64,000 nt of DNA from Nodularia spumigena CCY9414. GTDB taxonomy: Bacteria; Cyanobacteriota; Cyanobacteriia; Cyanobacteriales; Nostocaceae. The translations under genes were made by a program, and so were the position numbers. The stretch spans positions 2,845,824 to 2,909,823 of the forward strand of contig NZ_CP007203.1 in the NCBI RefSeq assembly GCF_000340565.2. The letters run 5' to 3'. Each line of letters begins with the position of its first letter. Positions within the stretch are counted from its first letter, which is position 1. Below, piece after piece: positions 21,503-37,100 of this stretch. A model generated the notes under the pieces. The model ran no database searches. It was not told the origin of the DNA and saw nothing but the letters and a program-made list of their open reading frames with translations.

Positions 21503-22621
21503 GTGGTTGCAACCCCAGAAAAACAGCAACACATCCACGAGCAGTTATCAGGTAAAGACAGAGTTGCTGTCTTACTTATGGGCTACGGTGAAGTTGAAAG
21601 CTATGAAGATTTTGCTAACTATAACGAACAGGCTTTAAATCTACTGACTGCAAAATTCGCACCAGTACCAACCTGGATTTATCCCCCTTTAGCAAAGCTA
21701 TTGGCGTTATTTGACCGTCATGAATGGGGACACACTCACCATGATTTTATTTCCCCACACAATGCCATCTTTGAACAGCAACGCGCTGGTATAGAAAAGA
21801 ACTTACAAGCCAAGTGGGGCGATCGCATCCAAGTTTTCAAAGCCTTTAACTTCTGTGCGCCCTACCTACCTGATCAAGTTTTAGCAGAAATTAAAAACCA
21901 AGGGTTCGAGAAAATCCTCATTTACCCCTTATTAGTCGTTGATTCCATCTTTACCAGTGGAATTGCAGTTGAGCAAGTTAACAATGCTTTAGCTGAGATT
22001 CCTGATGGAGAAGAACATTGGGTAAAAGCACAGCGTTACATCCCCTCCTTCTATAACGAACCAGCCTACATTGATTTATTGGCTAATCTCGTTGAGGAAA
22101 AGATTTCCGCCGAAGTAGGTGCAGCATACCTACCTTCTCAAATCGGTATTATCTTAATGAATCATGGTTGTCCCCACAAAGCCAAAGGATTCACCTCTGG
22201 AATTACCGAAAGTCAAACACTATATGATTTAGTCCGGGATAAGTTAATTAACCGCTATCCTTTAATTTCCGTGGGTTGGCTGAACCATGACACACCTTTA
22301 ATTGAATGGACATTGCCAAATGCCGAACAAGCTGCTAATAACTTGATTCAATTGGGTGCAAAAGCAGTAATATTTATGCCCATTGGCTTTGCGACAGAAA
22401 ACCACGAAACTCTATTAGATGTACACCACATCATTCATGATTTAGCGAAAAAGCATCCTGATGTGAGTTATGTCCAAATGGCCTGTGTTAACGACAAGCC
22501 AGAATTTTTGGAAATGGCTGCTGAATGGGCAAATGCTCATATTGCGGAGTTAATGAATCAGGAAGCTATGGCGGTTAATCCCCAGTTAGCGGGAAGTCAC
22601 CATCACCATCATCATCATTAG
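21503..22621 (+). CDS. Ferrochelatase-superfamily protein with a natural C-terminal His7 tail
   Basis: The 372 residues follow the ferrochelatase/CbiX class II chelatase fold: VAVLLMGYGEVESYEDF at the start, FNFCAPYLPDQV with KILIYPLLVVDS, and NHGCPHKAKGFTSGITES in the second half. It lacks the C-terminal hydrophobic chlorophyll-binding-like helix usual in cyanobacterial HemH, so it is probably a paralogue. The last residues are AGSHHHHHHH, encoded just before the stop. Poly-His tails bind nickel, cobalt or zinc, so a metal-delivery or non-iron chelatase role is possible. GTG start at 21503 with GAGGAA upstream. A strong terminator follows. Confidence 0.7.
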   Translation: MVATPEKQQHIHEQLSGKDRVAVLLMGYGEVESYEDFANYNEQALNLLTAKFAPVPTWIYPPLAKLLALFDRHEWGHTHHDFISPHNAIFEQQRAGIEKNLQAKWGDRIQVFKAFNFCAPYLPDQVLAEIKNQGFEKILIYPLLVVDSIFTSGIAVEQVNNALAEIPDGEEHWVKAQRYIPSFYNEPAYIDLLANLVEEKISAEVGAAYLPSQIGIILMNHGCPHKAKGFTSGITESQTLYDLVRDKLINRYPLISVGWLNHDTPLIEWTLPNAEQAANNLIQLGAKAVIFMPIGFATENHETLLDVHHIIHDLAKKHPDVSYVQMACVNDKPEFLEMAAEWANAHIAELMNQEAMAVNPQLAGSHHHHHHH

Positions 22622-23410: not shown

Positions 23411-24568
23411 TTAAAGAAGTTGCTGAATTTTATTGACTGCATTGATTATCAGAGAAAATGTCTTTTCTATTTCGGCTCTAGTTGTAAATTTACCAATACC
23501 AATTCTTAAAGCTCCTTCAATCAGATTTTCTGCAAGATTCATCGCTTGTAAAACGTGAGAGGGTGTAACAACACCGGAAGAACAAGCCGCACCTGTGGAA
23601 ATGGCTAATTGATGGCGAACTCTCGCAATAATTGCACTATTAGGAATATTCGGGATAGCAATATGTAAGTTACCTGATAAACGGTTGTTTAAGTCTCCGT
23701 TAATGACTAAATCAGGTATTTGTGATTGTAGCAAGTTTTGGAGTTGGTTTCGCATAAGTGCGATCGCCTGTTCATCTTTTTCCATCTCCAACCGTCTCCA
23801 GTGACAAGCTTCACCTAAACCAGCAATTCCGGGGACGTTGAGTGTACCTGATCTGATTCCCTGTTGATGTCCACCACCATATATAATTGGTTGCAGGTGT
23901 TCACCTTTTTTGATGACTAACGCACCAACTCCTTTGGGCGCATAAAGTTTATGTCCAGAAATAGCTAAATAGGTAATACCCCAGTCTTGAAAGTTGAGAG
24001 GAATTTTACCTACGGCTTGGGAAGCGTCACAGAGAAAAGGAATATTGTAGGAAGATGCGATCGCCCCAATTTTTGCAGTAGGATAAATTGTACCCACTTC
24101 ATTATTAGCAGCCATTACACACAGCAGAGAAGCACCCTCAGCGCAGACTTTTTCCAGATGTTCTAAATCAATTTGAGCTTGTTGATTGACTTTTAACCAA
24201 ACAATTTCGGCTAACTTTTTTTTCGCTAATGCAGCACAAGTATCTAAAACCGCCTTGTGTTCCACAGGGGAAACAATGATTTTGCATGGGTGATGCTGTT
24301 GGGAAACATAACCTTGAATGGCTAAATTAATGCTTTCTGTTGCACCAGAGGTAAAAATAATCTCCTTGGGGGAAGCATTGATTAATTCGGCTATTTGTTG
24401 ACGGGTTTGTTTAACAACTTTTGCTGCTTCATCTCCATATATATGATCTACACTATTGGCATTACCAAAGGCATTAGTCATATAATACATGACTTTTTCT
24501 GCTACTCTCAAATCAACGGGAGTAGTTGCATGATAATCAAGGTAAATTATCGTTTCTTGTCTAGTCAT
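23411..24568 (-). CDS. Cysteine desulfurase (IscS/NifS family), possible SspA/DndA role
   Basis: This PLP enzyme draws sulfur from cysteine as a persulfide. The 385 residues contain the DYHATTP opening, His 104 (VEHKAV), the PLP lysine 207 in ISGHKLYAPKG, RSGT, and the active cysteine 329 in STGAACSSG. ATG at 24568 is used; the longer frame to 24673 begins in an ACGCAAAGG repeat and is spurious. It lies last in a minus-strand defence island with DUF4007, P-loop ATPase and PAPS-reductase-like genes, so it may be the sulfur donor of an Ssp/Dnd phosphorothioation system. It could equally be a general IscS. Confidence 0.9.
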   Translation of the reverse strand: MTRQETIIYLDYHATTPVDLRVAEKVMYYMTNAFGNANSVDHIYGDEAAKVVKQTRQQIAELINASPKEIIFTSGATESINLAIQGYVSQQHHPCKIIVSPVEHKAVLDTCAALAKKKLAEIVWLKVNQQAQIDLEHLEKVCAEGASLLCVMAANNEVGTIYPTAKIGAIASSYNIPFLCDASQAVGKIPLNFQDWGITYLAISGHKLYAPKGVGALVIKKGEHLQPIIYGGGHQQGIRSGTLNVPGIAGLGEACHWRRLEMEKDEQAIALMRNQLQNLLQSQIPDLVINGDLNNRLSGNLHIAIPNIPNSAIIARVRHQLAISTGAACSSGVVTPSHVLQAMNLAENLIEGALRIGIGKFTTRAEIEKTFSLIINAVNKIQQLL

Positions 24569-24662
24569 TTTTTTAAACGCAAAGGTACGCAAAGGTAACG
24601 CGGAGGTACGCAGAGAATTATCCAAACTCTCTGCGCCTCTGCGCCTGGTGCGTGAGTTTTCA
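24569..24662. repeat. Spacer repeat of the ACGCAAAGG / CTCTGCGCCTCTGCG family
   Basis: AAACGCAAAGGTACGCAAAGG units followed by GCAGAGAATTATCC and CTCTGCGCCTCTGCG form an imperfect inverted structure between the GHKL ATPase and cysteine desulfurase genes. The same unit lies in the hoxF-hoxU spacer. Confidence 0.65.
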
Positions 24663-26486
24663 TCATAACTCATTCTCTAAAAATCTTCTGGCAACTCTCC
24701 CCCAATCAATGCGAGTATCTTGGGCGTTTTCTTTGCGTTTACCATCTAATTCATCTTCATATCTCGCCCATGCCATTAATAGTAATTTTAAACCATCTAA
24801 GGAGTTAATCAACCGAGTCCGTAAAGTCTCAATATCGGCTTTATCTACATCCATTTCTAAGATTTCTACTAAATTTTCATAAGCCGGATGATTGGTATTT
24901 AAGCTCACAATAATTGCTCCTCCTCTCGATTTCACAGAGAAGAAAGCGGAACTATCAAGGGGAGATTGGGCAAAGGTATATTTTAAACCATCATCTACAG
25001 TTGTTGCTGCTAATAATTCTGCTTGTGTTTCAGTTACTCCCTCTGCTTTTAAAGTTTCTTTAATAACTTGTTTTCGTTCTGCTTTTGGTAATTGTTCATC
25101 TGCATCACTCTTACCTTTATGACCCTGTATTTTACGTTCTTGGGTAATAGTTGTAGCTACTTTCTCAGGTTTATAAGGGTCGTGGCGTTTTTCACTGGTA
25201 CGAGTTCCTTTAGTTTGTGCTTTGATTAAACGCCGAATTACACTCAGTTGACTGCTAATTTTATGCGCTAATTCTAATAATGGATATTTGGGATCTTCGT
25301 CTTGGAGTAGTTCTTCTTTAAGTTGAGCAACGGTTTTTCCTTCTTCTAATAAAGATTCAATATCTAGTTGGAGAATTTCTGCAAAATTACGGGCTGATTG
25401 CTTGTTATTCGTAACTCCAAAAATATCATCAAGAGATGGGGGAAAGTCTACTTCAATGCCCCACCAGCGTTCTGTAGGGTCATAATTATTAACTAAGTTT
25501 TGGTCTAATTCTAATTCTCTACCTGCACGCACTACAGAAAGACCAACATTTTTAGAAGCGTGTTTTCCATGAGGTAAATCACCGGGGTTTTTTCCTGGTT
25601 CGGCTTGACGGGCTGATTCTTTAGCGTAAGAAAAGCGAATTTTTACATCATGTTCTTTTTCTTTAAAGTTAATCTTATAAGTTGCTTCATAAGATGTATC
25701 TCCTTCCCAGGGCTGAAACATTGCTTGATTATCATAAGGTGCGGGACAGGATGTTTTTTCGATTAAATAGCCTGGGTCATTAGGACGAGCATTTTTTGCC
25801 AAGATAATATCATATAAGGCATCTAAATCAAAGGCTACCATGCGAATTTTAACTTTTTCATCATTCAGGAATTTGCGGTACATTCTCCCGATCACAAATT
25901 CAGAATTATCAATAATTGCTTTTCCAGTTCGCCACATACAACGGTCTATATTTGACCAAACTACTAATGTGCCACTATGACCAAATTCATCTGCGATTTT
26001 TGTCCAAATCATCGGAATTGGTTGAGTAGTAGGTTCTGGTACTTCCGTCATCTGACGACTTTTAATTTCATTTAGATCAAGGTAACTATGGAGTGCGTTT
26101 TCTACTCCATTTTGCCATGTCCAGACATCAACCCGTTGACATTGGGAAATAGAGGAAGATGGTAAACCCATGCCAAAACGACCGATTCCGGTATGTTTAT
26201 CTTCAGCTAAATAAGTACCATTACCAAATTGCAGGGCTAGACGTAAAACGTCAGCATCCATACCTTTACCATTATCTAATACTGCGATTTGTTCAATGCG
26301 CGATCGCTTTCTTTCTTCTACCTGTTGTTTACGTTCACCACAGAGTAATTCTACCTGAGATGCACCGGCTTGAATGGCATTATCCATTAATTCGGCGATC
26401 GCATAAGCCGCATTTTTATAACCATTATCCCGCATTGCTTGCACAGCCAGGTGAGCCGGAACAATATCATGGGGGTTGCTATTCAT
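24663..26486 (-). CDS. GHKL (HSP90/MORC-like) ATPase of a defence island
   Basis: The 607 residues carry a Bergerat ATP-binding fold: AELMDNAIQAGA (N box, 31-42), DNGKGMD (71-77) and HTGIGRFGMGLPS (98-110). The middle part is S5-like, and the C-terminal third is charged with a KAERKQVIKETLKAEGVTE helix. Such GHKL proteins occur with helicases in phosphorothioate-linked restriction modules and other anti-phage systems. ATG at 26486 is chosen because it overlaps the helicase stop as ATGA; the frame extends 9 codons further upstream. It appears intact, while its helicase partner is broken. Confidence 0.8.
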   Translation of the reverse strand: MNSNPHDIVPAHLAVQAMRDNGYKNAAYAIAELMDNAIQAGASQVELLCGERKQQVEERKRSRIEQIAVLDNGKGMDADVLRLALQFGNGTYLAEDKHTGIGRFGMGLPSSSISQCQRVDVWTWQNGVENALHSYLDLNEIKSRQMTEVPEPTTQPIPMIWTKIADEFGHSGTLVVWSNIDRCMWRTGKAIIDNSEFVIGRMYRKFLNDEKVKIRMVAFDLDALYDIILAKNARPNDPGYLIEKTSCPAPYDNQAMFQPWEGDTSYEATYKINFKEKEHDVKIRFSYAKESARQAEPGKNPGDLPHGKHASKNVGLSVVRAGRELELDQNLVNNYDPTERWWGIEVDFPPSLDDIFGVTNNKQSARNFAEILQLDIESLLEEGKTVAQLKEELLQDEDPKYPLLELAHKISSQLSVIRRLIKAQTKGTRTSEKRHDPYKPEKVATTITQERKIQGHKGKSDADEQLPKAERKQVIKETLKAEGVTETQAELLAATTVDDGLKYTFAQSPLDSSAFFSVKSRGGAIIVSLNTNHPAYENLVEILEMDVDKADIETLRTRLINSLDGLKLLLMAWARYEDELDGKRKENAQDTRIDWGRVARRFLENEL

Positions 26487-27600
26487 GGGTTTTTCCTCCA
26501 AACGTCTTCCCAATTGTGAAAAGCTGATGCTACAGACCCAAAACCGGGGAGTTGACTATCAACAACGGTGACAATTTCGGCGGTAGCATTTCCGCCAGCT
26601 TTGAGTCCTCTGATGGCTCGTCCTACCATTTGGCTGTAGAGTACAAGGGATTTGGTGGGACGGGCGATAACGGCCGCACTGGTTTTTGGTGCAAGGAGAA
26701 GCCAGTAGTTAAAACCCCGTAGTTACATAAAATCTTGGTTTGGGGCTGGTCGTCTTTAAAATTTTGGATGATGCGTTCTTGTTCTGATTTGGGGGTGTTA
26801 CCTGTCACAGCATCAGCATTGAAGCCTCTTAAACGCAAAATTGAAGTGATGAGTTGAGCGTGTTCAACGGAGGTATTAAAAACGATAATGCGGTGATGAT
26901 GTTGGGCGAGTGCTTCGAGTTCCAGGATAATGCGGAGGTTGCGTTGTTCGTCTTCAGCTAACCAATGGAGAATATATTGGGGAATATCTAACTCTGTATT
27001 AATCCGATTCAGGTCTTGGGGACTGAGTTCAATACCACTTTCGTAGAATAAGGAGCGATAGTTAGCTTGAGCTAGGTATTGTTCCTCGACCAGATAATCT
27101 ATAGGGTTGTCATAACCTGGAATTTCTAAAGTAACTTTCTGTTGGGCGAAGAATTTCGCTAGTTGTGCATCAGTGTTAATATCAGCCCAAGTGCGTCCGG
27201 GTGTAGCGGTTAAACCCAGTAAGGCGGTTTTTTCGTAGGGGACAACTAAAGCATCTAATACGAGTTGATAGGTTTGGGCTACAGCTTGATGGGCTTCGTC
27301 TATAACTACCAAAGAGGAACGCACACCGAGTTGATTAATAAAGCGAATACTCTTTTTAGCGGCGTTGTATACTTTGGCTAATCCTGCTACTATGAAACCA
27401 TCTTCAACCTGTTCTAAATCTAAATCATGGCTACCCCAGAAGCGGTAAGTTGAGATGGTGCGATGGCGTAAACGCCCAACATAGCTGAACGCCTACACAG
27501 TCCCATGCTTTTTGAAATTCTGTAACCGCTTGCTCACAAAGTTCTTCACTATATGCCAACCAAATCACTAGAGTTGGTTCATTATTTCTCAGCGTAAACC
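26483..27600 (-). pseudogene. Superfamily 2 DEAD/DEAH helicase, 5'-truncated and frameshifted
   Basis: Minus-strand reading recovers helicase pieces in sequence: EPTLVIWLAYSEELCEQA (from about 27570), then after a frameshift near 27490 FWGSHDLDLEQVEDG, VVIDEAHQA (motif II), LGLTATPGRTW (motif III), and IVFNTSVEHAQ. After a second frameshift near 26690-26703 come ARPTKSLVLYSQMVGRAIRG (motif VI) and the end HNWEDVWRKNP. The stop at 26483-26485 overlaps the GHKL start. Motif I (Walker A) and the rest of the N-terminus are absent: the HNH gene stops at 27582, inside the remaining helicase frame. The only long uninterrupted part is 26623-27324 plus its upstream in-frame stretch. It is almost certainly inactive unless sequencing errors explain both shifts. 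Confidence 0.8.
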
Positions 27601-28721
27601 CAATTAGCACTAAAACCCTGAATAGTTGCTAAAGAAATTAAAGGTTTAAGAGTTCTTTCATAAGCATTATTTAGAATTTCTAAATTTAATAAATCATTGG
27701 CTTGATTAACTTTCAATTCTGCAACAAAAGATTCGACATCATTTAACCATTTATTTTGAGAAACTTTTTGATGATAAATATCTAAGCCTAAATATTGCAA
27801 CTTAACAAAATTATCAAAATATTTTTCAGATGGTAGATTATTAGATTTAGAAGAATTAACAGATTTTGTAGTTGGAATTAAATTCCATAATTGATCATGA
27901 GCAACAAATGACCAAGGTAGATAATGATCTAATGATATTTCATCCTTATTTAATTGAATTTGAGAATAAATACATTTAATATCCTGATGTTCTAAAATAG
28001 TTTTCCAATATTGAGTTTGTTTAATTAAAGAATCTCTTTGTTGTGGCATAAATAGTTTTTTAACCACATTGGGAATACTAGGGTTTCTTTGTTGCATATA
28101 ATTTAACCATTCCCAAGATACCCAACCCCTAACTATTGTGTAATTTTTCTCTAAATATTCTACCCAATCAGGGTGTATAATAATTGCGTTACAATCTTTT
28201 TGATTGTCAGCGTTAAAGCAATATAAAGGCTTATGTCTATAGAATTGATTGTTAGCTAAATTAATGATAGTTGGATTAACATCATAATCTTTTAATCTTC
28301 TAGTTTCTTGAGTAAAGAAAGGACGAATTAACCGATAAGAAACATAGCGATTAATAGAGCTAATAATATCTTCAATATTTTGATTATTAATAGTATTACG
28401 TAGAATTTTCTTATCCGGCTCTCTAAAATTTAAAAGTGGTTCTTTAAGTTCTAATTCCAAATTATCTAATTTATTAGCGATTTGGTCTATCTTCCCAAAA
28501 GAAAGTTTAAAATATTTGTGAGGATACCAAGCATTAGCCAACATCTCAACAATAATTTCCCGAAAACTAATGGCTGATAGATTATCAAAATTTCTTCGTT
28601 TAAGAATATCTAATAATGATAAAAAATAAAGATATTTATAAGAGTTAGTCGTTGAATCAAATAGTCCTGCTAATGCTGAAATATTTAAATTATCAGCAAT
28701 TGGTAAGTTATACATATTCAA
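27582..28721 (-). CDS. AT-rich HNH endonuclease domain protein
   Basis: The 379 residues are mostly of unknown fold (Asn/Leu/Ile-rich). A C-terminal HNH core is visible: CIYSQIQLNKDEISLDHYLPWSFVAHDQLWNLIPT, with His in LDHYLPW and Asn in LWNLIP, then SSKSNNLP. HNH proteins of this layout occur in phage-defence and mobile contexts. The gene is noticeably more AT-rich than its neighbours and its 3' end abuts the truncated helicase frame, so it is probably a later arrival that replaced the helicase 5' part. ATG at 28721 is 10 bp from the start of the Uma2 duplication. It may or may not belong to the original Ssp-like system. Confidence 0.65.
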   Translation of the reverse strand: MNMYNLPIADNLNISALAGLFDSTTNSYKYLYFLSLLDILKRRNFDNLSAISFREIIVEMLANAWYPHKYFKLSFGKIDQIANKLDNLELELKEPLLNFREPDKKILRNTINNQNIEDIISSINRYVSYRLIRPFFTQETRRLKDYDVNPTIINLANNQFYRHKPLYCFNADNQKDCNAIIIHPDWVEYLEKNYTIVRGWVSWEWLNYMQQRNPSIPNVVKKLFMPQQRDSLIKQTQYWKTILEHQDIKCIYSQIQLNKDEISLDHYLPWSFVAHDQLWNLIPTTKSVNSSKSNNLPSEKYFDNFVKLQYLGLDIYHQKVSQNKWLNDVESFVAELKVNQANDLLNLEILNNAYERTLKPLISLATIQGFSANWVYAEK

Positions 28722-28735
28722 TTTGCGATCAAATT

Positions 28736-29149
28736 CTATTTGTGAATACTTTCACGTAACTTTGAAATTAAATCTTTTGGCTTTTCACCAGACATCAGCA
28801 AAATTGCCAATAGGTTTAAATCCAAATCTGGTAAAAGTTGACTTTGATTTATTTGCTCAAACTTATTACCATGCAGATAATATAATCAAAATTGATTATT
28901 CTGCCAAAACCAAACCTCTGGTACACCCAAACCTTGATAAATTAATAAATCATTAATTCCGCCACTAGTTACAACTATTTCAATCGCCAAATCAGGAACA
29001 GGTTTTTCAGCATTAAAACAATAACATTCATCTGGTTCTATACCTCTAGCGACTGCTTCTCTTCTGAAAGTCGTTGAGCCTAAAGGATAAAAATCAATAT
29101 CAATTTCTAAAAAATAAGTTTCCAACAATAAAGCTATAATTTTTTTATC
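28736..29149 (-). pseudogene. Uma2 family fragment, partial copy of the gene at 31686
   Basis: Positions 28731-29149 match 31681-32099 at a constant offset of 2950 with no indels and few substitutions. The copy lacks the first ~70 codons of the Uma2 gene, and a TCA to TGA change near 28886 puts a stop in frame after WFWQNNQF. Reading continues in the same frame to TAG at 28736. Its truncated 5' edge is fused to the sspD-like stub. Confidence 0.9.
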
Positions 29150-29327
29150 TAATCCCCAGTCGTGCTTTGATGCGGTCAAGATATTCGTAAGTTTCCGGTA
29201 ACTCTTTATGGGTATCACAAAAAAAATATTCCATTTCTGGAATTTCCTTATGTAGTAATACTGCTAAAGCGGTACTATCCTTACCCCCGGAGATACCTAA
29301 TATATGTTTAACCTTTTTCTCTGCCAT
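29145..29327 (-). pseudogene. SspD/DndC-like PAPS-reductase-family gene, N-terminal stub
   Basis: From ATG at 29327, 60 codons remain, beginning MAEKKVKHILGISGGKDSTA. The SGGKDS PP-loop (13-18) binds ATP in the PAPS reductase/ATP pyrophosphatase superfamily, and FFCDTHKELPETYEYL is the expected next segment. Proteins of this family normally have several hundred residues. The frame ends at the junction with the Uma2 copy (about 29150), so only the start survives. Together with the DUF4007 and P-loop ATPase genes upstream, this identifies the missing sulfur-activating component of an Ssp-type phosphorothioation set. Confidence 0.7.
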
Positions 29328-29534
29328 GCTTATTTTTAGTGCTTTTTGGCAAGTTTATTTATATTTCTCATATTTTAGCAAACATGGAAATCTTTTGTAT
29401 AGCATTTTGCAAAAACTTTATTAAATACAGTGAAATTACTGGTTAGTTGGATTTTTCTAAACTAGCTACTCTATTTTTTAGTATATGAGTATTGCTGGTA
29501 TAGCTAATCTTCCAGAGGTAGTCACGCGCATTGT

Positions 29535-29930
29535 TCAAGTTTCTAACCAGTTATCTAATTTTAAGTTGGCAATATTTTCAAAATCTTTGATATTATTAGT
29601 AATCAGAATATCCTCACGAGAACGAGCCACAGATGCAATCAAGGCATCAAATTCTCCAGTTGGTTTGCCAATGTTTCGGAGTTCGCTTTGAATCTTGCCA
29701 AATTCCATAGCTGCATCTAAATCAAATTGTTCCACTGGCAACAATTCGATGAACTGTTCTAAGGTCTCTAGATTTTTGGCTACTTGTCGAGAACAATAAA
29801 CACCTTTGTATAGTTCTGAAACTACAATGATGGACAGATAGCATTGACTAAAAAAGCGATTGAATTTAGTCACAGCTTGGGGATTTTCTTTCAGTAGGGC
29901 AATACAAATATTCGTATCTAGTAGATACAT
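29535..29930 (-). CDS. PIN-domain toxin, VapC family
   Basis: The 131 residues are a typical PIN ribonuclease: MYLLDTNICIALL (Asp 5), VVSELYKG (conserved Glu), PTGEFDALIASVA and DILITNNIKDFENI (acidic metal-binding residues). VapC toxins cut tRNA or rRNA when freed from the antitoxin. Its ATG overlaps the antitoxin stop by one base (TAATG at 29928-29932). The pair stands between the sspC-like and sspD-like genes, as an insertion. Confidence 0.88.
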   Translation of the reverse strand: MYLLDTNICIALLKENPQAVTKFNRFFSQCYLSIIVVSELYKGVYCSRQVAKNLETLEQFIELLPVEQFDLDAAMEFGKIQSELRNIGKPTGEFDALIASVARSREDILITNNIKDFENIANLKLDNWLET

Positions 29931-30217
29931 TAGCCGTTATCCTGATTATCCAGTGAGTCTATATTTCTGCCTTGATAAATATGGCGTTGTTGGTCAATTT
30001 CAGTAAATATTTCTGTTAATTCCGGTTGATTTTTCCAAGCACCAAATAATTGATTGAGTCTAGCTAATCTCTCTTCTTCTGTTAATAGTGGTTTTGGTTC
30101 TGTAACTGGATTGGTAATAAATCCTACTTCTATTGTGATTTCGGTTCCATCTGGAATATTACTAAGTTGTCCTAAAATTTCAATATTTTGACCACGTTTT
30201 ATCCCTCTAACTTTCAT
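29930..30217 (-). CDS. Antitoxin partner of the VapC toxin
   Basis: The 95 residues start MKVRGIKRGQNIEIL, a short beta-rich opening followed by an acidic helical tail with LTEEERLARLNQLFGAW. The gene is directly upstream of and overlapping vapC, the standard antitoxin-toxin order. Such antitoxins bind the toxin and usually the operon's own promoter. It belongs to the cyanobacterial VapB-like group rather than to AbrB-type VapB by eye. Confidence 0.75.
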   Translation of the reverse strand: MKVRGIKRGQNIEILGQLSNIPDGTEITIEVGFITNPVTEPKPLLTEEERLARLNQLFGAWKNQPELTEIFTEIDQQRHIYQGRNIDSLDNQDNG

Positions 30218-30329
30218 GTTTAATTATCTCCTGCGCTAACATACCCATTCATAATCTGATTTGAAAACCCCAAAAATCAAAACAAGACTATCCATAAGAG
30301 TTACACTACATACCTCTGTCCCAAAAGCA

Positions 30330-30557
30330 TTACTTATTTTTTAACTTACGCTTCATTTCTAAGTATTGCTGAAACGTGGAATCAGAAATGCACTCATCAA
30401 TAAACTTCTCCAGTTCATTCCTCATTGTGCTGTCAATAAATTGACAGTAATCCTTAAACAGTTCCCTCTTACCCTCTGGAAGATAGAAACCAAGATATTC
30501 TTGTCCTTGACGCTTCTCTATCACAAATAAATTTTGCACATCATCAATACCCATCAT
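30330..30557 (-). CDS. Small protein of unknown function
   Basis: A 75-residue frame, MMGIDDVQNLFVIEKRQGQEYLGFYLPEGKRELF at its start split over a beta-like then helical region, ends in a basic tail (EMKRKLKNK). It is not recognised. Its start lies 28 bp from an 11-bp inverted repeat shared with the divergent DUF4351 gene. It may be a regulator or antitoxin-like partner. The neighbourhood is accessory. Confidence 0.45.
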   Translation of the reverse strand: MMGIDDVQNLFVIEKRQGQEYLGFYLPEGKRELFKDYCQFIDSTMRNELEKFIDECISDSTFQQYLEMKRKLKNK

Positions 30558-30584
30558 AAAGCGTGAAGTTTCAATATATATATT

Positions 30585-30610
30585 GTACTATACATAAATA
30601 TGTATGGTAC
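30585..30610. promoter_or_regulatory. Inverted repeat between divergent genes (possible operator)
   Basis: GTACTATACAT (30585-30595) and ATGTATGGTAC (30600-30610) pair at 10 of 11 positions around AAAT. It lies midway between the start of the small minus-strand gene (30557) and the DUF4351 gene (30663). Confidence 0.5.
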
Positions 30611-30662
30611 GATTGGATAGGCATTAATCCGACTTGACAATATTAAATTAGGTGAATTATGA

Positions 30663-31547
30663 ATGACACGCTTTATACATGACAAATTTGCTAAAGACTA
30701 TCTGGAAGAAATACTCAAAGATTATGGAGAAGTCAAGTCATCAGAAAAAGTCTCAGGAGAGATTAAGGAAATAGATGTTTTATTCACTCCTGACAAACAG
30801 GAAAATTCTAACTTACAAATACTGGGTTTACTAGGAAGATTTGCTCAAAATCCTGCAATATTGGAACCATTCCGCAATCCAGCCTCCAACGATGAAATCT
30901 GCGACTGTATTCTCAAATTATTAGAAATCAAGGCTTGCTTGCGGCGAGAAGCTAAAGCAAATAAAACCAAACTTCAAGACTCAGAAATTCCCCAATTGTG
31001 GGTTCTGACACCTACCGTATCTGAAACTAGATTGTCTAGCTTTGGAACCAGACAAAAAGAAGGTTGGTTATCGGGAGTACATTTTCTACCAGATGCTTTG
31101 CGAACAGCAATTGTGGCGATACATCAACTACCGCAAACGCCGGAAACATTATGGTTACGACTTTTGGGTAGAGGAAATGTACAATCACAAGCGATTATAG
31201 AGTTGCAGGCGTTACCATTAAATCATCCATACCAGAAAGCAACCTTGGAATTAGTTTATAACTTGCGTGAAAACTTGAAAGTAAATCAAGAATTAGAAGC
31301 AGATGATAGGGAGTTAGTTATGCGATTAGAACCACTGTATCAAAGAGACAGAGAACAAGCTGTACAGTCTGGAGAACAACGTTTAATTATACGTCAACTC
31401 AATCGCCGTATTGGAGAAATCAATGAATCATTAATCGAGAAAATTAAAGGATTATCCATTGAAAAATTAGAAAATCTAGGAGAAGCATTACTAGACTTTT
31501 CTAGTGTAGGTGATTTAGAAACTTGGTTAAACCAACAACCAAAATAA
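30663..31547 (+). CDS. DUF4351 protein, Rpn/PD-(D/E)XK-like putative nuclease
   Basis: The 294 residues have an N-terminal Rpn-type region (MTRFIHDKFAKDYLEEILKDYG, EIDVLFTP, and EIKACLRREAKANKTK as possible catalytic Glu-x-Lys) and a C-terminal DUF4351 (LNRRIGEINESLIEKIKGL, FSSVGDLETWLNQ). These proteins are amplified in cyanobacteria and related to recombination-promoting nucleases and putative transposases. It is the only plus-strand gene in this island and interrupts the minus-strand operon, so it arrived separately. Target unknown. Confidence 0.75.
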   Translation: MTRFIHDKFAKDYLEEILKDYGEVKSSEKVSGEIKEIDVLFTPDKQENSNLQILGLLGRFAQNPAILEPFRNPASNDEICDCILKLLEIKACLRREAKANKTKLQDSEIPQLWVLTPTVSETRLSSFGTRQKEGWLSGVHFLPDALRTAIVAIHQLPQTPETLWLRLLGRGNVQSQAIIELQALPLNHPYQKATLELVYNLRENLKVNQELEADDRELVMRLEPLYQRDREQAVQSGEQRLIIRQLNRRIGEINESLIEKIKGLSIEKLENLGEALLDFSSVGDLETWLNQQPK

Positions 31548-31574
31548 ATCCCCATCAAATGAAGTTTATCATAG

Positions 31575-31600
31575 CCCCCTCCTCGCTTGCGGGGAGGGGG
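31575..31600. repeat. CCCCCTCC...GGAGGGGG hairpin repeat
   Basis: CCCCCTCC and GGGGAGGGGG flank CGCTTG, followed by TTGGGGGTGGGG and then TTCTTTTA. A common cyanobacterial intergenic repeat. It may terminate the DUF4351 transcript. Confidence 0.6.
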
Positions 31601-31685
31601 TTGGGGGTGGGGTTCTTTTATTTCAATAAACTAAAATTATCCATAAAAAACTAAACAAAGTAAATCTTCTTCTTCCGCTCAAATT

Positions 31686-32315
31686 TTATTTACGAATACT
31701 TTCACGGAACTTGGAAATTAAATCCTTTGGTTTTTCACCAGACATCACTAAAATTGCCAATAGCTTTAAATCTAAATCTGGTAAAAGTTGACTTTGATTT
31801 ATTTGCTCATACTTATTACCACGCAGATAATATAATGAAAATTGATGATTCTGCCAAAACCAAACCTCTGGTACACCCAAACCTTGATAAATTAACAAAT
31901 CATTAATTCCCCCACTGGTGACAACTATTTCAATCGCCAAATCAGGAACAGGTTTTTCAGAATTAAAACAATAACATTCATCTGGTTCTATACCTCTAGC
32001 GGCTGCTTCTCTTCTAAAAGTCGTTGATCCTAAAGGATAAAAATCAATACCAATTTCTAAAAAATAAGTTTCCAACAATAAAGCTATAATTTTTTTATCA
32101 ACCTCATGACGGCGACTAGGTGACATTATTTCTAAAGTACCTTCTAAATATTTAAAGCGATAATGAGAATTATTTTGGCAACTTTTTAATAGTGTCTCAT
32201 ATATATCCCAGCTAATGCCATTCATGAGTAAAATTTGGTCAGAATCAACGTTGTTTAATGCTGATTGACTTGTTAATTCTTCCCATTGGCTCAATTTTGC
32301 TAGTAAACCTAACAT
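31686..32315 (-). CDS. Uma2 family putative endonuclease
   Basis: About 209 residues from ATG at 32315. Visible features are SHYRFKYLEGTLEIMSPSRRHE near the start, PDECYCFNSEKPVPDLAIEIVVTSGG with the Asp and Glu of the PD-(D/E)XK core, and PEVWFWQNHQFSLYYLRG. The open frame runs on to 32381, but that part is made from a hairpin repeat (32364-32395), so the inner Met is preferred. It is the intact parent of the truncated copy at 28736-29149. It stands directly after the sspC-like gene in the same direction. Confidence 0.85.
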   Translation of the reverse strand: MLGLLAKLSQWEELTSQSALNNVDSDQILLMNGISWDIYETLLKSCQNNSHYRFKYLEGTLEIMSPSRRHEVDKKIIALLLETYFLEIGIDFYPLGSTTFRREAAARGIEPDECYCFNSEKPVPDLAIEIVVTSGGINDLLIYQGLGVPEVWFWQNHQFSLYYLRGNKYEQINQSQLLPDLDLKLLAILVMSGEKPKDLISKFRESIRK

Positions 32316-32363
32316 TGTCACTGCTCCAAAATCGCTTTGATTTCTGTGAAAATTAAGAGGTTC

Positions 32364-32395
32364 AGATCCCCGACTTCTCAAAGAAGTTAGGAATC
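32364..32395. repeat. Hairpin repeat upstream of the Uma2 gene
   Basis: GATCCCCGACTTCT and AAGTTAGGAATC are near-complementary around CAAAG. A similar CCCCGAATTCTT palindrome acts as a terminator at 37112-37136. Confidence 0.5.
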
Positions 32396-32446
32396 TTGTT
32401 TTTCACGAATGATTTAAGATTCTCTTCCCCCATCATAAAGCCTCTG

Positions 32447-35400
32447 TTAGCCAAAATTCTTCCCCTGGATATTTTCATCAGGTCGTTTTTCTGCAATCTG
32501 AATCACCCCCTCGCTGAAAGCAGGAGTTAAAATCCGTTCATTCAACCTCGCCAAAACCGCTTGTCTTAACTGCAAATCATCCGGTAATTCAGCCAGAATT
32601 TTATCAACAATCTTTTCAACCTGCGATTCTCTCCCATGATCTACCCATACCATTTGATGAATTTCTTCACCATCTGGACGAGTCATGGTAATCCGTCTTC
32701 CCTCAAAACCTTCACCCTTAGCGGCTACTTCCTTTTGTACAGCTTCCAGATTCTTAAACCGGCGCACCAAATCGGCTAACTTCATCTCAAATGCAGTCAC
32801 ATCCTCATCAGTCCATGATTCTGCCGGTTTATCAGCCACAATCATCACCAAAGCTTCCAACCACTGAGAATCACTGGCTTTTTCATCCGATGCGGCTTGA
32901 GTAAAGCGTTTTAATAAAGGTTCAATACATTTTCCCGCCAAATAATTCGCCCTGACCCGTAAATCTTCCCGCAGTTTTGTTTCCTTACTTCTAACACCAA
33001 AAGCTTCATATAGCAGTTTTTGACAATCACCCAACAAATGATCATAAGCTGTATGAATATCTCGCAAAGCTTTAACTAACTTAATGCGGAGGGTTTTAGC
33101 TGTTATCCCATCATCCCCAGCTTCAGTACCAATTGCAGGTAAATTACAAGCTTGCGGCAAAGCTTTAAATAACAATTCATCAGGTTCAATAGTAGTTTGT
33201 AATGCCCTTAAAATCGCTCTCGATTCATTTTCAATTCGTTGGGTCTTTTGAGTATATTTAGGCAGCTTCTTCACAAATTGATAAAGGGGAGTAACCACCG
33301 TTAACAAAGTTGCATTACGAACCTTAGTCAATTGTTTTAACTGCGGATTTCGTAAAATTGCTTCTAACTCTTTGAATACTTCCGCCCTTAATCCTAAAAC
33401 TGCAAAATACTTAACTGCAAAACGTTCAGGATATTTGACTAATAATTCAAAATGTTCTGTTCCTAAAACTGGAATAAATGTTCCATCTTGATACACTCCC
33501 AAATCATCAGCGTGATACAACAGAACCGCCGCTATAATCACAGGAATTGCACCTTGCTTAACGCCATAGGGAGGTGCGGCTAAACGTTGATAAACTAAAT
33601 CAAAAGTTTGGCTTTTTTCCATCGCTGATAAACAAAAATCTTCTACCACATCCCAAAGAGAATTCAAACCCGAATTTTCTGATGGTGGTAAAAAGTCCCA
33701 ATAATCATCTTCCTGTTGATGAATCCCTGTTTGTTCTAACAGAGAATAATACATACAAACTTCGGGACCATAACCTTCTAACCCTAATCTTTCCTCATTT
33801 TGATGTTCCAACATAGCCTGAATCAATTCTCGTCTAGCTTTTGTCCCCTGAGAGGTTAAATCTCGACGGTTAATTAATTCATTCCAGAGAATGGGACTTT
33901 GATGATAAACTTGATCGCAAATATCTGAAAGTTTGCCATTAAAATCAGTAACATTATTGAGTTTGGTGAGTTTTCCTTCTACCCAACATTTCTGATTTAT
34001 CCCAATACTAAAAGATTGACTGAGGTTTTCATCTAAAGATTGTTCAGCTTCTAGTAAACGATAATTTACCTCTTTTCTCGCCACCCCATCAGTTTGTAAT
34101 TCCTTAGCTGTTTTTTTGATATTATTCAAAGCCACAAATTCTAGGGTGCGAATCCTCAAAATAGCTAAATTCGCTGCACTCAAAATGACCAAGGGTTTAC
34201 CATCGCTCGTTGTGGAAGGAACAGCATCAGGAATTTCTTCATCTACCCAATACCCCACAAAACCATCCGCATCAACGCTACTACAACTTAATTGCTGCAA
34301 ATCGTGGGATTTATCTAAATAATGGCGTTCAAAATAACGTAAAGTCCCCTTTTGGTAGCTGTGACGTTGAGCTACTAAAGGTCTGAGAGGACGGTGGAAA
34401 GATAGCAGTTTTACTAAAGGCGATCGCTCTTGTTCGATATAATTAGATAACTCACTATCAACATTAAAATCAGAACCTTGCCAAATCCGCAATTCATCTA
34501 ATTGACGACGATGAGTAATTAAGTTATGATTCAGCAATTGATCAATAATATCTTGCCAATAATTAAGCTGTGCTGTTGAGGGAGAATCGCACATAGCTAA
34601 ACAGACTAAAGTTCTCGTCGCTCTCATTGAACCCGTAACAGTAATGAGGTTCAAAATCCCAATAGTTTTAAGTACCCTGAGACTATCTTCTTCTAAGCGT
34701 TTAGCATCACTAATTAAATCTTGAATTTCCACCCATCTTTGCAAATTAGGACGAGAAGCTAAACCCATCCCAGCCGCTTCAATGAAATAGTCATAAATCC
34801 GGTATAATTTCAGAGTCGGAAAGCTATCATCTGCAACCGTGACTTCATCTAAGAAATTCCGAAAAGATAAAGGTTCACTACTGGTTAAAAACGTAAATAA
34901 AGAACGGTCATTTTGAGCATAACGTTGGCAAAGTGTTGGTAAAACCAAAGCAGACAAAGGATGTAGCGGATAAACTGCCTCAATTACCTTATCAGTGACT
35001 TCTTCACCAATAATCTGTGATTCCAAATATTCAAACCACTCCTGAGCATTACTATGAATAGCACAGCTAATTTTTTCAGATGCTGAAGAGTCAATTGCTT
35101 GACCAATTAACCGCATCATTTGCCCAGATGATTCCGCAAAAGGAATATCCTCAAATCTTCCTTGAATCTTCGCCCATTCGTTGCGTTGAACAGATGCTAA
35201 ACGTTGACCATATTCAGCAAAAGCTTGATGTAAAATCCCTAAAATATAAACAGGAGTTTTGCTATCTTTGGGTAACTCAGCTAACTGTTGTAAAAGATAT
35301 AAATCTTCAGCCCCTTGTTCATGAGAAGCATACTCTAAATTTTTACCCAGTTCATCAATAACCAGTAAAATACCCGCTTGAGATTCCTGAGCCAGTTCTA

Positions 35401-35953
35401 AAACCAAACCAGGAATTTCTTTACTGTCAACCGTTCTACCAGCATTAATTTCAGTTTCTAAATCTAGCAATTTTTGAACAACATTAATATTATTTCTCTC
35501 AGTCAGATTCCCAAAATTATTAACACCAATTAATAAAGCCCGGATAACAGTATGACTAATTGGTTCTCTTTGTCCCGTAGCAACAGCCCTAATTAATCCT
35601 ACAGAATTAGTTTTTTCTTGAATTAATTGATAAATATTGTTTTCTGTTCCTAAAGCTTCCTCAGCTATAGATAAAGCTGTCCTGTGCATTCTACTCTCAG
35701 AACCAGCAACCAGTGAAATTAAAAAATGAGCAAAAGCAGACTTACCAGTACCATAGACACTGGTTAAAGTCCAAGCCCTATTTCCTGCATCAGAACTAAA
35801 AGTATTAATAATCCTTCCTAGAGATTCAACTGCTCTTTGAGTGAGAATATAACCCTCTAAAGCTTCCACACTTTCTAAATCCCGTTCTAAATTAATTGAA
35901 CGAGTATAGCGACGCTCAAGACTGAAATAATGGGATAATTTTTGGTTAGTCAT
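32447..35953 (-). CDS. Large P-loop ATPase, SspC-like
   Basis: The 1168 residues open with an AAA-like ATPase: a Walker A-like SVYGTGKSA (65-73, Lys 71) and Walker B GILLVIDELGK (194-204, Asp 200, Glu 201). A long helical region (about 300-1100) follows, with RPDGEEIHQMVWVDHG near the C-terminus. It is intact. The order DUF4007 gene, large ATPase, PAPS-reductase-like gene matches sspB-sspC-sspD of single-stranded phosphorothioation systems, in which SspC is the ATPase; that role is inferred from order and family look. It starts 79 bp after the DUF4007 gene. Confidence 0.68.
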   Translation of the reverse strand: MTNQKLSHYFSLERRYTRSINLERDLESVEALEGYILTQRAVESLGRIINTFSSDAGNRAWTLTSVYGTGKSAFAHFLISLVAGSESRMHRTALSIAEEALGTENNIYQLIQEKTNSVGLIRAVATGQREPISHTVIRALLIGVNNFGNLTERNNINVVQKLLDLETEINAGRTVDSKEIPGLVLELAQESQAGILLVIDELGKNLEYASHEQGAEDLYLLQQLAELPKDSKTPVYILGILHQAFAEYGQRLASVQRNEWAKIQGRFEDIPFAESSGQMMRLIGQAIDSSASEKISCAIHSNAQEWFEYLESQIIGEEVTDKVIEAVYPLHPLSALVLPTLCQRYAQNDRSLFTFLTSSEPLSFRNFLDEVTVADDSFPTLKLYRIYDYFIEAAGMGLASRPNLQRWVEIQDLISDAKRLEEDSLRVLKTIGILNLITVTGSMRATRTLVCLAMCDSPSTAQLNYWQDIIDQLLNHNLITHRRQLDELRIWQGSDFNVDSELSNYIEQERSPLVKLLSFHRPLRPLVAQRHSYQKGTLRYFERHYLDKSHDLQQLSCSSVDADGFVGYWVDEEIPDAVPSTTSDGKPLVILSAANLAILRIRTLEFVALNNIKKTAKELQTDGVARKEVNYRLLEAEQSLDENLSQSFSIGINQKCWVEGKLTKLNNVTDFNGKLSDICDQVYHQSPILWNELINRRDLTSQGTKARRELIQAMLEHQNEERLGLEGYGPEVCMYYSLLEQTGIHQQEDDYWDFLPPSENSGLNSLWDVVEDFCLSAMEKSQTFDLVYQRLAAPPYGVKQGAIPVIIAAVLLYHADDLGVYQDGTFIPVLGTEHFELLVKYPERFAVKYFAVLGLRAEVFKELEAILRNPQLKQLTKVRNATLLTVVTPLYQFVKKLPKYTQKTQRIENESRAILRALQTTIEPDELLFKALPQACNLPAIGTEAGDDGITAKTLRIKLVKALRDIHTAYDHLLGDCQKLLYEAFGVRSKETKLREDLRVRANYLAGKCIEPLLKRFTQAASDEKASDSQWLEALVMIVADKPAESWTDEDVTAFEMKLADLVRRFKNLEAVQKEVAAKGEGFEGRRITMTRPDGEEIHQMVWVDHGRESQVEKIVDKILAELPDDLQLRQAVLARLNERILTPAFSEGVIQIAEKRPDENIQGKNFG

Positions 35954-36032
35954 AAATTTACTTAATTCTTTTATACCATTCCCTAGTCTGTATTCATCTG
36001 CGTTCGATCATCATTTATTACCATTTGCTGTA

Positions 36033-36947
36033 TCAAGAATTATAATACTTTCCTAAAACTTCTTGAGTTAAAATATCTGGTTTTTCATTAAAAGATAACT
36101 GAATTAACCCTGCCGTATCAGAAAGAATTAGCGTCTTAAAGTTTTGAATAACTATCTCAATAGCTTCACACAAAACATTTTCAGTTAATTTAAACACCAT
36201 CCCCGGACTACCTTCATCATAAAGTAAACGAGAAATGGCAATTGTTTTTGTACTACCTACCCAAGCGGCATATTCTAAACAAGCAGCAACTATAATCTCT
36301 GCTGGTAAATTCGTTTTATTACCAATTTTAAACTGATAATTTTTCCCAAAAGTCCGAATTAAACCCAGTTCATTAAAAGGACAATCAATAGAATCTTCAA
36401 TTGGACTATTATTGCTCACAAAATCCTGTGAAGCATACATTCTTAAAATACAATTTACATCTTTAATAAACGAAGATTCAGCAATATTTTTATTGAAATT
36501 GTCTATATACTCGTTAAGTCCTGCTAAAATGTCTGCCTTTGTAAACTCTGAATCCCGAAATATATTAAATATATAATACCAAGCAGCAGCTTCACAAGTA
36601 GGTTTTAACAAATTCCAATGTAACAACCATAATGATGCAGGGTCTTCTAAATAAGGGTCCCATCCATCGTTTCCCAAAAGTTGCTCACCAAAACTTGTTG
36701 GAGAATTATTTTTATCAATAATTTTAAAAGCATTACACCAATAGCGCATAGAGCGTACCATATTCTTACCCACACCCAAACGCACAGGTGCATCATCTTG
36801 TAAGAAAATTCCGGAATTTGTTTTCACAGCATCAAATCCTTTTTTCAGCCAACCAAAACGAGGGTGAAAAGTTTCATGGTTGGCAAATATTGGATTTACG
36901 GGATTTACTGGAGTTTCAATATTTTTTAAGTTCAGTGTAGTTTGCAT
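36033..36947 (-). CDS. DUF4007 family protein, SspB-like
   Basis: The 304 residues show the DUF4007 pattern: HETFHPRFGWLKKGFDAV, RLGVGKNMVRSMRYWCNAFKI, WDPYLEDPASLWLLHWNL and WYYIFNIF. In Ssp systems the DUF4007 protein SspB is reported as the nickase that opens the strand for sulfur insertion. ATG at 36947 is used; eight further in-frame codons upstream are hydrophobic and unlike the family. It is the first gene of the minus-strand island. Upstream lies an AT-rich spacer, probably its promoter. Confidence 0.78.
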   Translation of the reverse strand: MQTTLNLKNIETPVNPVNPIFANHETFHPRFGWLKKGFDAVKTNSGIFLQDDAPVRLGVGKNMVRSMRYWCNAFKIIDKNNSPTSFGEQLLGNDGWDPYLEDPASLWLLHWNLLKPTCEAAAWYYIFNIFRDSEFTKADILAGLNEYIDNFNKNIAESSFIKDVNCILRMYASQDFVSNNSPIEDSIDCPFNELGLIRTFGKNYQFKIGNKTNLPAEIIVAACLEYAAWVGSTKTIAISRLLYDEGSPGMVFKLTENVLCEAIEIVIQNFKTLILSDTAGLIQLSFNEKPDILTQEVLGKYYNS

Positions 36948-37100
36948 CACGATAAAATGTATAAATAGCAACTATTTTTGTTATTATGACTCAAAGGAGA
37001 CAAAATTTAGTTAATTCAGTAAAAAATTTATTTAAATTTAAATGATATTAACCAGTTGATTTTCCTGATATTTGCTTGAATTCAGTGAAAATCAGGAACC

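Follow-up and report, generated by a model that had tools for sequence, protein, structure and literature searches.

Signs of decay in an Ssp-type DNA phosphorothioation locus of Nodularia spumigena, with an HNH endonuclease gene at its break

The SspABCD system of DNA phosphorothioation, with SspE or SspFGH at its side, was reportedly described by Xiong in 2020. Here we analyze a related locus in Nodularia spumigena CCY9414, on a stretch of 64,000 nucleotides (contig NZ_CP007203.1, positions 2,845,824–2,909,823) that we call the window and to which the coordinates below refer unless another locus or genome is named. In summary accounts of the system, SspB binds DNA and has a triple winged-helix fold, and SspC is an Orc/Cdc6-type ATPase (PMC10853773). 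Two other systems are close. In the archaeal DndCDEA-PbeABCD system, as outlined in PMC6459918, PbeA is a fusion of a PLD domain and a helicase, and Pbe required the modification to act and was non-toxic without it. Type 4 bacteriophage exclusion (BREX), with BrxP and BrxC, has homologs of the DUF4007 protein, the 3'-phosphoadenosine 5'-phosphosulfate-reductase-type enzyme and the BrxC-like ATPase, according to the outline in PMC12839542.

Set beside these systems, the locus resembles SspABCD as sketched in PMC8092258: its genes for SspB, SspC, a stub of SspD and a cysteine desulfurase all point the same way. It differs in that its SspD is cut and in having a helicase, a GHKL ATPase and an HNH protein in place of a named SspE–H; PADLOC gave the names SspE, SspF, SspG and SspH to none of the 10 locus proteins, its library not having been checked for those models. 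The likeness to Pbe lies in the helicase of an intact relative, which scores as PbeA, and in a separate PLD gene in some ssp loci; however, no PbeC-type ATPase is named in the ssp locus, which has a GHKL ATPase instead and sspBCD in place of dnd genes. The locus differs from type 4 BREX in that none of the 10 proteins scanned was named PglZ or BrxL. We read it, with a probability of roughly 70 per cent, as a degenerating Ssp phosphorothioation locus in which sulfur insertion has ended, the effector is probably dead and the HNH gene has been retained on its own account. The HNH gene, the joint that it shares with a truncated ('headless') helicase and the link of its family to broken Ssp loci are new here.

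The layout is given in Table 1. A preliminary description of this DNA had reported six genes in one direction on the minus strand, and the list of open reading frames (ORFs) bears out all six where it had placed them. Its SspB-like and SspC-like genes score within those families and not outside them, its SGGKDS stub of 60 codons is matched by the start of the SspD model, and SspB, SspC and the GHKL protein are open as it said. The cysteine desulfurase is present, but its assignment to SspA rather than DndA is not supported, the two models being tied and the type indistinguishable; the genome has eight desulfurase-like matches. A helicase is likewise present (Pfam Helicase_C 37 bits) but not intact, and the list of genes was incomplete, since it overlooked the HNH gene, a seventh on the minus strand, which marks the break. 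The family scores of SspB, SspC, the SspD stub, the GHKL protein and the desulfurase are far above chance, and the translations contain the motifs GTGKS (SspC), SGGKDS (SspD stub) and ACSSG (desulfurase).

Table 1. Features of the locus in window coordinates
Feature	Position	Strand	Remarks
sspB (DUF4007)	36033..36971	-	open, 312 amino acids (aa); Pfam DUF4007 349 bits; PADLOC SspB 420 bits, positions 2-295/295
sspC, BrxC-like ATPase	32447..35953	-	open, 1168 aa; PADLOC SspC 1605 bits, positions 2-1104/1104 (full length); BrxC 459 bits
Uma2-family gene, complete copy	31686..32381	-	ORF; 94% DNA identity over 427 base pairs (bp) with the 3' Uma2 copy
DUF4351 gene	30663..31547	+ (opposite strand)	Pfam 84 bits
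PIN-domain gene and 95-aa upstream ORF	29535..30217	-	PIN 57 bits
sspD stub	29145..29327	-	60 aa, SGGKDS kept; PADLOC SspD 82 bits, positions 1-55/277
3' part of second Uma2 gene, codons 94-231	28723..29149	-	fused to sspD codon 60
HNH_4 endonuclease	27582..28721	-	open, 379 aa; Pfam HNH_4 44 bits
Helicase remnant, codons 175-537, three pieces	26492..27607	-	27607-27491, 27471-26698, 26692-26492; Walker A part absent
GHKL ATPase	24663..26513	-	open, 616 aa; HATPase_c_3 83 bits; nearest solved relative MORC2 ATPase, E-value 5e-4
Cysteine desulfurase (SspA/DndA type)	23411..24673	-	open; PADLOC DndA 463, SspA 461 bits

The lesion that would end sulfur insertion lies in sspD, which keeps 60 of about 266 codons. 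The stub is 92 per cent identical to codons 1–60 of the intact 266-aa SspD of a related locus, L034 (related loci are given here by our L numbers and genomes by G numbers). Beyond codon 60 its frame enters codons 94–231 of a Uma2 gene, and a complete Uma2 copy stands after sspC. Because a complete Uma2 gene precedes the HNH gene at locus L067 of the same genus, a deletion from sspD into the Uma2 gene would be the simplest reading. A search of the whole genome (5.46 megabases, one contig) with the SspD model found no second SspD; the other match, at 40 bits, is DndC (650 bits), and the genome's one DUF4007 match is the window's own sspB. With sspD reduced to 60 codons and no other SspD in the genome, Ssp modification of the DNA is therefore very probably lost.

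The loss of modification proposed in the preliminary description holds for Ssp only: dndB, dndC, dndD and dndE lie open and in trans at G000:C1, about 205358–212024 (locus L149), so sulfur marking by Dnd may persist. DndC scores 650 bits, DndD 787 bits, PbeC 995 bits and DndE 53 bits, with Pfam matches to DndE (147 bits) and the DndB domain (41 bits). That locus also has a MazF/PemK-type gene, flanked by dndD and dndE, and a gene for an HNH_2 nuclease next to dndB. There is no sign that the HNH gene of the window is tied to Dnd: of the 388 genomes in our sample of the order, 314 have DndC, and the HNH-bearing genomes G081, G125 and G135 have no match to it.

Decay, also proposed earlier, is visible at the same site within the genus. 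The flanks of the island were found in all five genus genomes searched, and DUF4007 had no match in the four others. Three of these have both flanks on one piece with graded remains between them: about the last 120 codons of sspA (L065); sspA, a 430-aa ORF that looks transposase-like by eye and a piece of sspC, codons 486–739 (L066); and a DndB-like gene, Uma2, HNH, a helicase scrap and sspA (L067). In the fourth (G003), the flanks are on two contigs, one of which ends inside sspA.

The helicase has suffered twice. Its ORF at 26623–27324 is a fragment: by tblastn, homology to the intact 540-aa helicase of L034, which resembles PbeA (95 bits), begins at codon 175 and runs through two frame changes, and the locus has no PbeA-like helicase with Walker A. 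A junction alignment places the 3' end of the HNH gene against helicase codon ~176, just beyond the Walker A segment. The window shares this joint with L037, L150, L151, L152, L157, L158, L160–L163, L171 and L203, and L153 and L159 have it with second deletions about 25–40 bp further on, which makes 14 relatives in all, the joint being called identical after allowing for later substitutions; L154 and L155 carry other sequence after HNH. Because so many relatives share it, the joint is best taken as one old event. The window's helicase frame was then broken by a short insertion and a small indel. At about 27471–27491, the site of the insertion, relatives such as L037 have GCGATCGC, the repeated octamer of cyanobacteria known as HIP1.

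Gene order tables place the helicase and GHKL genes side by side in most related loci that have them, sometimes with a PLD-domain gene. Because of this adjacency, the PbeA score of the L034 helicase and the added PLD gene in some loci, the helicase and GHKL protein are, as the preliminary description suggested, a plausible candidate effector. If it behaves like Pbe, inert and non-toxic without modification, this would explain how sspD could be lost. In the window the candidate effector is probably dead, its helicase having lost frame. Cyanobacteria are summarized in PMC8569181 as rich in phosphorothioation genes, reportedly without matching DndFGH restriction genes. The loci described here point to candidates for that gap, namely PbeA-like helicase, GHKL, PLD, DndB-like and HNH proteins, and they suggest how phosphorothioation systems die.

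The HNH protein of the window lacks the N-terminal XRE-type helix-turn-helix found in many relatives (HTH_3 in the longer relative L037). Residues D265, H266, N280 and N289 are invariant across 47 relatives, and a profile of the family hits SpCas9 in its HNH domain (E-value 3e-5). A fold search of the N-terminal part gave nothing clear for a sulfur-binding domain such as marks the phosphorothioate-binding HNH nucleases (SBD-HNH, DndI), a missing match being no proof of a new fold. A contig scan found 69 named HNH loci, 59 of them cyanobacterial and 10 from Latescibacterota, Gemmatimonadota, a spirochaete and a Lachnospiraceae metagenome-assembled genome (MAG). Among these 10, L218 has SspA, an 87-aa SspB-like ORF, SspC and SspD followed by an HNH gene cut by the contig end; L205 has a DndB-like gene together with a short fragment resembling SspA; and the other eight gave no match to ssp profiles in the DNA examined. 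The HNH match was free of stops in 46 of 49 stretches checked. Among the listed papers on DUF4007, Ssp, Dnd, sspD pseudogenes, GHKL and homing endonucleases in defense, covered as titles and abstract openings and for some as passages, none reported this family.

Pooled with an earlier set, the HNH loci number 95 distinct, 78 with a full-length match, and many are cut by contig ends. The 78 include 21 without an ssp match nearby and nine with SspA only. SspB and SspC are intact with SspD absent or a fragment in 11, the window included, and SspB, SspC and SspD are all intact, each as a single piece, in three (L102, L123 and L163). The three are a lower bound, because SspC is matched in two pieces beside an intact SspD in several further loci (e.g. 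L043, L127, L131, L171) and many contigs end nearby. HNH adjoins intact SspD as well, and we rejected the notion that it strictly replaces SspD. On a tree of 47 HNH proteins, with labels set by hand from the gene order table and loci with only SspA or scraps counted as solo, the label 'in ssp locus' requires 11 changes, at least seven of them forced by supported branches; the window's HNH pairs with that of a Nodularia MAG (100/97), long branches being a caution.

Across 388 genomes of the order, HNH matches occur in 64, DUF4007 in 89 and SspD (E-value at most 1e-45) in 55. By lists typed by hand, a full-length HNH gene stands without full SspB in 22 of 42 genomes, and SspD without full SspB in 4 of 49. 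Among 20 relatives' loci, all 12 without HNH have SspB, SspC and SspD, and two of the eight with an HNH match (one partial) have SspD. The slot between SspD and helicase varies in relatives: some have DndB-domain proteins there, in certain loci accompanied by a 221-aa protein, and in others it is empty.

These distributions allow other explanations. One, which we regard as possible if doubtful, is that HNH is a mobile selfish nuclease, with a LAGLIDADG partner in some loci, that enters Ssp loci and takes the place of parts of their genes; it would have broken the present locus, later deletions starting at its edge. Its borders are those expected of a mobile nuclease with loss of flanks. In counts made after strict removal of duplicate loci, 41 of the 78 loci have an ssp gene downstream of HNH and no more than 400 bp away; this gene is truncated on the HNH-facing end in 29 (20 only there, nine at both ends), at the far end alone in three and not at all in nine; an upstream ssp gene, present in 11 loci, is truncated on the facing side in five, on the far side only in one and not at all in five. 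Many of the 29 are the shared helicase event; grouped by us, the facing-only breakpoints come to 11 distinct ones (helicase codons ~176, 372 and 504; SspA codons 51, 141, 178, 198, 204, 277 and 327; SspD codon 64), eight within 60 bp of HNH and three at 170–339 bp. SspC is cut directly before HNH at codons 706 (L173), 726 (L118) and 887 (L167), an ssp piece is reversed in L190, L193 and L195, other phyla have HNH copies unaccompanied by ssp genes, and between L037 and L111 the synonymous divergence (dS) of HNH is 0.52, far above the 0.08–0.18 of neighboring ssp genes. A minus-strand LAGLIDADG_2 relative adjoins XRE-HNH in nine distinct loci, in seven of which SspC is cut (codons 574 to 1030). 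The family thus resembles free-standing homing endonuclease genes, a familiar kind, in being a small nuclease ORF with sharp borders, several contexts and a LAGLIDADG partner; it differs in that no target site and, among the loci compared, no empty allele (an ssp site without the HNH insertion) was found, and the window lacks the LAGLIDADG gene. Deletions up to a selected gene could also look alike, the downstream ssp piece shares the orientation of HNH in 38 of 41 loci, and some operons combine HNH with intact B, C and D. The breakpoint count of 11 against three is post hoc (one-sided P about 0.03, worked by hand); two of the 11 (L153 and L159) represent a second deletion within the helicase form that is shared, and one of the three far-end cases (L190) may be an artifact of query length. 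A broader claim, which we advance only tentatively and consider rather doubtful, is that this nuclease family, sometimes with LAGLIDADG, parasitizes cyanobacterial Ssp loci by inserting, replacing parts of core genes and outliving them; the window would be a victim whose headless helicase, its Walker A part replaced by HNH, is kept by selection in several relatives as part of a remodeled effector. Mobility would make HNH a nuclease parasite that frequently lands in an immune locus, and a simple test between a gene that survives and an invader that breaks becomes possible.

Two further explanations keep the locus at work. Quite unlikely, in our estimate, is a sulfur-independent defense in which SspB and SspC act as a scanner that recruits HNH in place of SspD. 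The 11 loci in which B and C are intact but SspD is missing or fragmentary would fit it, as would two SspD-less pairs that are constrained in all three proteins, with ratios of nonsynonymous to synonymous substitution rates (dN/dS; all pairwise values are Nei–Gojobori estimates) of 0.19 in B, 0.14 in C and 0.17 in HNH (L036/L037) and 0.21, 0.10 and 0.10 (L044/L106). In the 61 genomes that have full SspB, full SspD is present in 11 of the 20 that also have full HNH, in none of the three whose HNH is partial and in 34 of the 38 that lack HNH (Fisher P = 0.006; 0.0007 with the three partial cases added), in counts that are uncorrected for kinship, come from full/partial lists typed by hand with a cut of our choosing and include some short contigs. 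HNH, however, adjoins intact SspD too, SspA is kept although a sulfur-free system should not need it, and the loci exchange genes, so that the selection may date from intact ancestors. Far less probable still is a live locus served by DndC in trans. DndC is present in the genome, and nine of nine SspD-less relatives tested, in which no SspD was found elsewhere in the genome, have just a weak SspD-model match (33–40 bits) within a longer, 525–571-aa frame; six of the nine were in the DndC search, all six match, and the place is the same in the three with a place listed (G045, G274 and G403). Yet DndC is so widespread in the order that co-occurrence says little, and the literature assigns DndC and SspD to separate modification complexes.

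We return to a degenerating locus. In intact relatives, the SspA cysteine desulfurase would supply SspD, the PP-loop enzyme, with sulfur, SspB (by DNA binding) and the SspC ATPase would choose the site of modification, and the PbeA-like helicase and the MORC-like GHKL ATPase would be the likely effector, as gene order and published Ssp and Pbe work suggest. On the way to the window, the HNH joint would have cut the helicase at codon ~176, its frame being lost later, and the deletion joining sspD codon 60 to Uma2 would have left Ssp unable to modify DNA. Loss of the mark may have been tolerable, as Pbe- and SspE-type effectors need the mark to act according to the literature, and the genome's Dnd genes perhaps also made it so. 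HNH would have been retained on its own account, because relatives without SspB, C or D nearby evolve under purifying selection: dN/dS is 0.13–0.24 in five HNH pairs (L113/L115, L107/L110, L107/L116, L124/L126, L110/L115), a sixth, L122/L130, being saturated. On the window branch, dN/dS of HNH is 0.21, and that of the helicase piece is 0.19–0.20 against 0.06–0.10 on the sister branch; the helicase scrap compared between the window and L100 has dN/dS of 1.08 over 53 codons.

Several results weigh against this reading. In 10 loci, eight of them distinct (including L154, with its other joint sequence), the headless helicase has an open frame; in L151, L161 and L162 it is shorter or broken. Fixing omega at 1 in IQ-TREE, under three kappa values, costs at least 163 log-likelihood units (−2608 versus −2771 at best), which indicates that the headless helicase is kept by selection in relatives, unless it was renewed by recombination with full-length alleles; with such strong purifying selection, truncation alone would not be fatal there. 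The window branch itself still looks constrained, with dN/dS of 0.19–0.33 for SspB, 0.18–0.20 for SspC and 0.10–0.13 for GHKL, and SspA is open and constrained on it (0.11–0.12). A dead locus would be expected to lose such constraint over time; the loss of sspD may be recent. Between the window and L067, moreover, HNH is less constrained (0.33), SspA having 0.12.

The LAGLIDADG relative was recognized by Pfam in three of its nine loci (117–125 bits; 122 bits in L112) and by BLAST in the others, and has I-SceI relatives in the PDB (E-value about 1e-12). SspC reaches 1120 of 1168 residues in one of the two remaining loci (L175) and was not found in the other (L172). In these nine loci, among them L112 (6885–7838) and L051 (6291–7247), the start of the LAGLIDADG protein has a weak Ros/MucR-like zinc finger match. 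Divergent from XRE-HNH in eight distinct loci (e.g. L051, 7252–7527, and L110, 8194–8484) is a conserved protein of 92–97 aa with no known family; like the LAGLIDADG relative, it is absent from the window locus.

Near residue 745, the SspC of L043, L121, L127 and L131 has a low-complexity stretch that varies among them; three of these loci show a frame change. An intein in the split SspC of L043, L121 and L131 was ruled out on account of this stretch and the frame change, the protein being in one frame in L127. In SspD-less loci of one genus, a PD-(D/E)XK-like protein of 220 aa lies between sspC and HNH (L044, 10111–10773, and L106). The interval between sspC and sspD in the window holds the Uma2 gene, the plus-strand DUF4351 gene, a 75-aa ORF and the PIN-domain gene with its 95-aa upstream ORF. 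A DUF4351-like gene or piece occurs between sspC and sspD or HNH in several related loci as well, by the gene order tables. A family search gave no assignment for the 95-aa ORF; from their arrangement, it and the PIN-domain gene are toxin-antitoxin-like. Beyond the desulfurase gene, a plus-strand predicted protein of 372 aa (21503–22621) ends in seven histidines.

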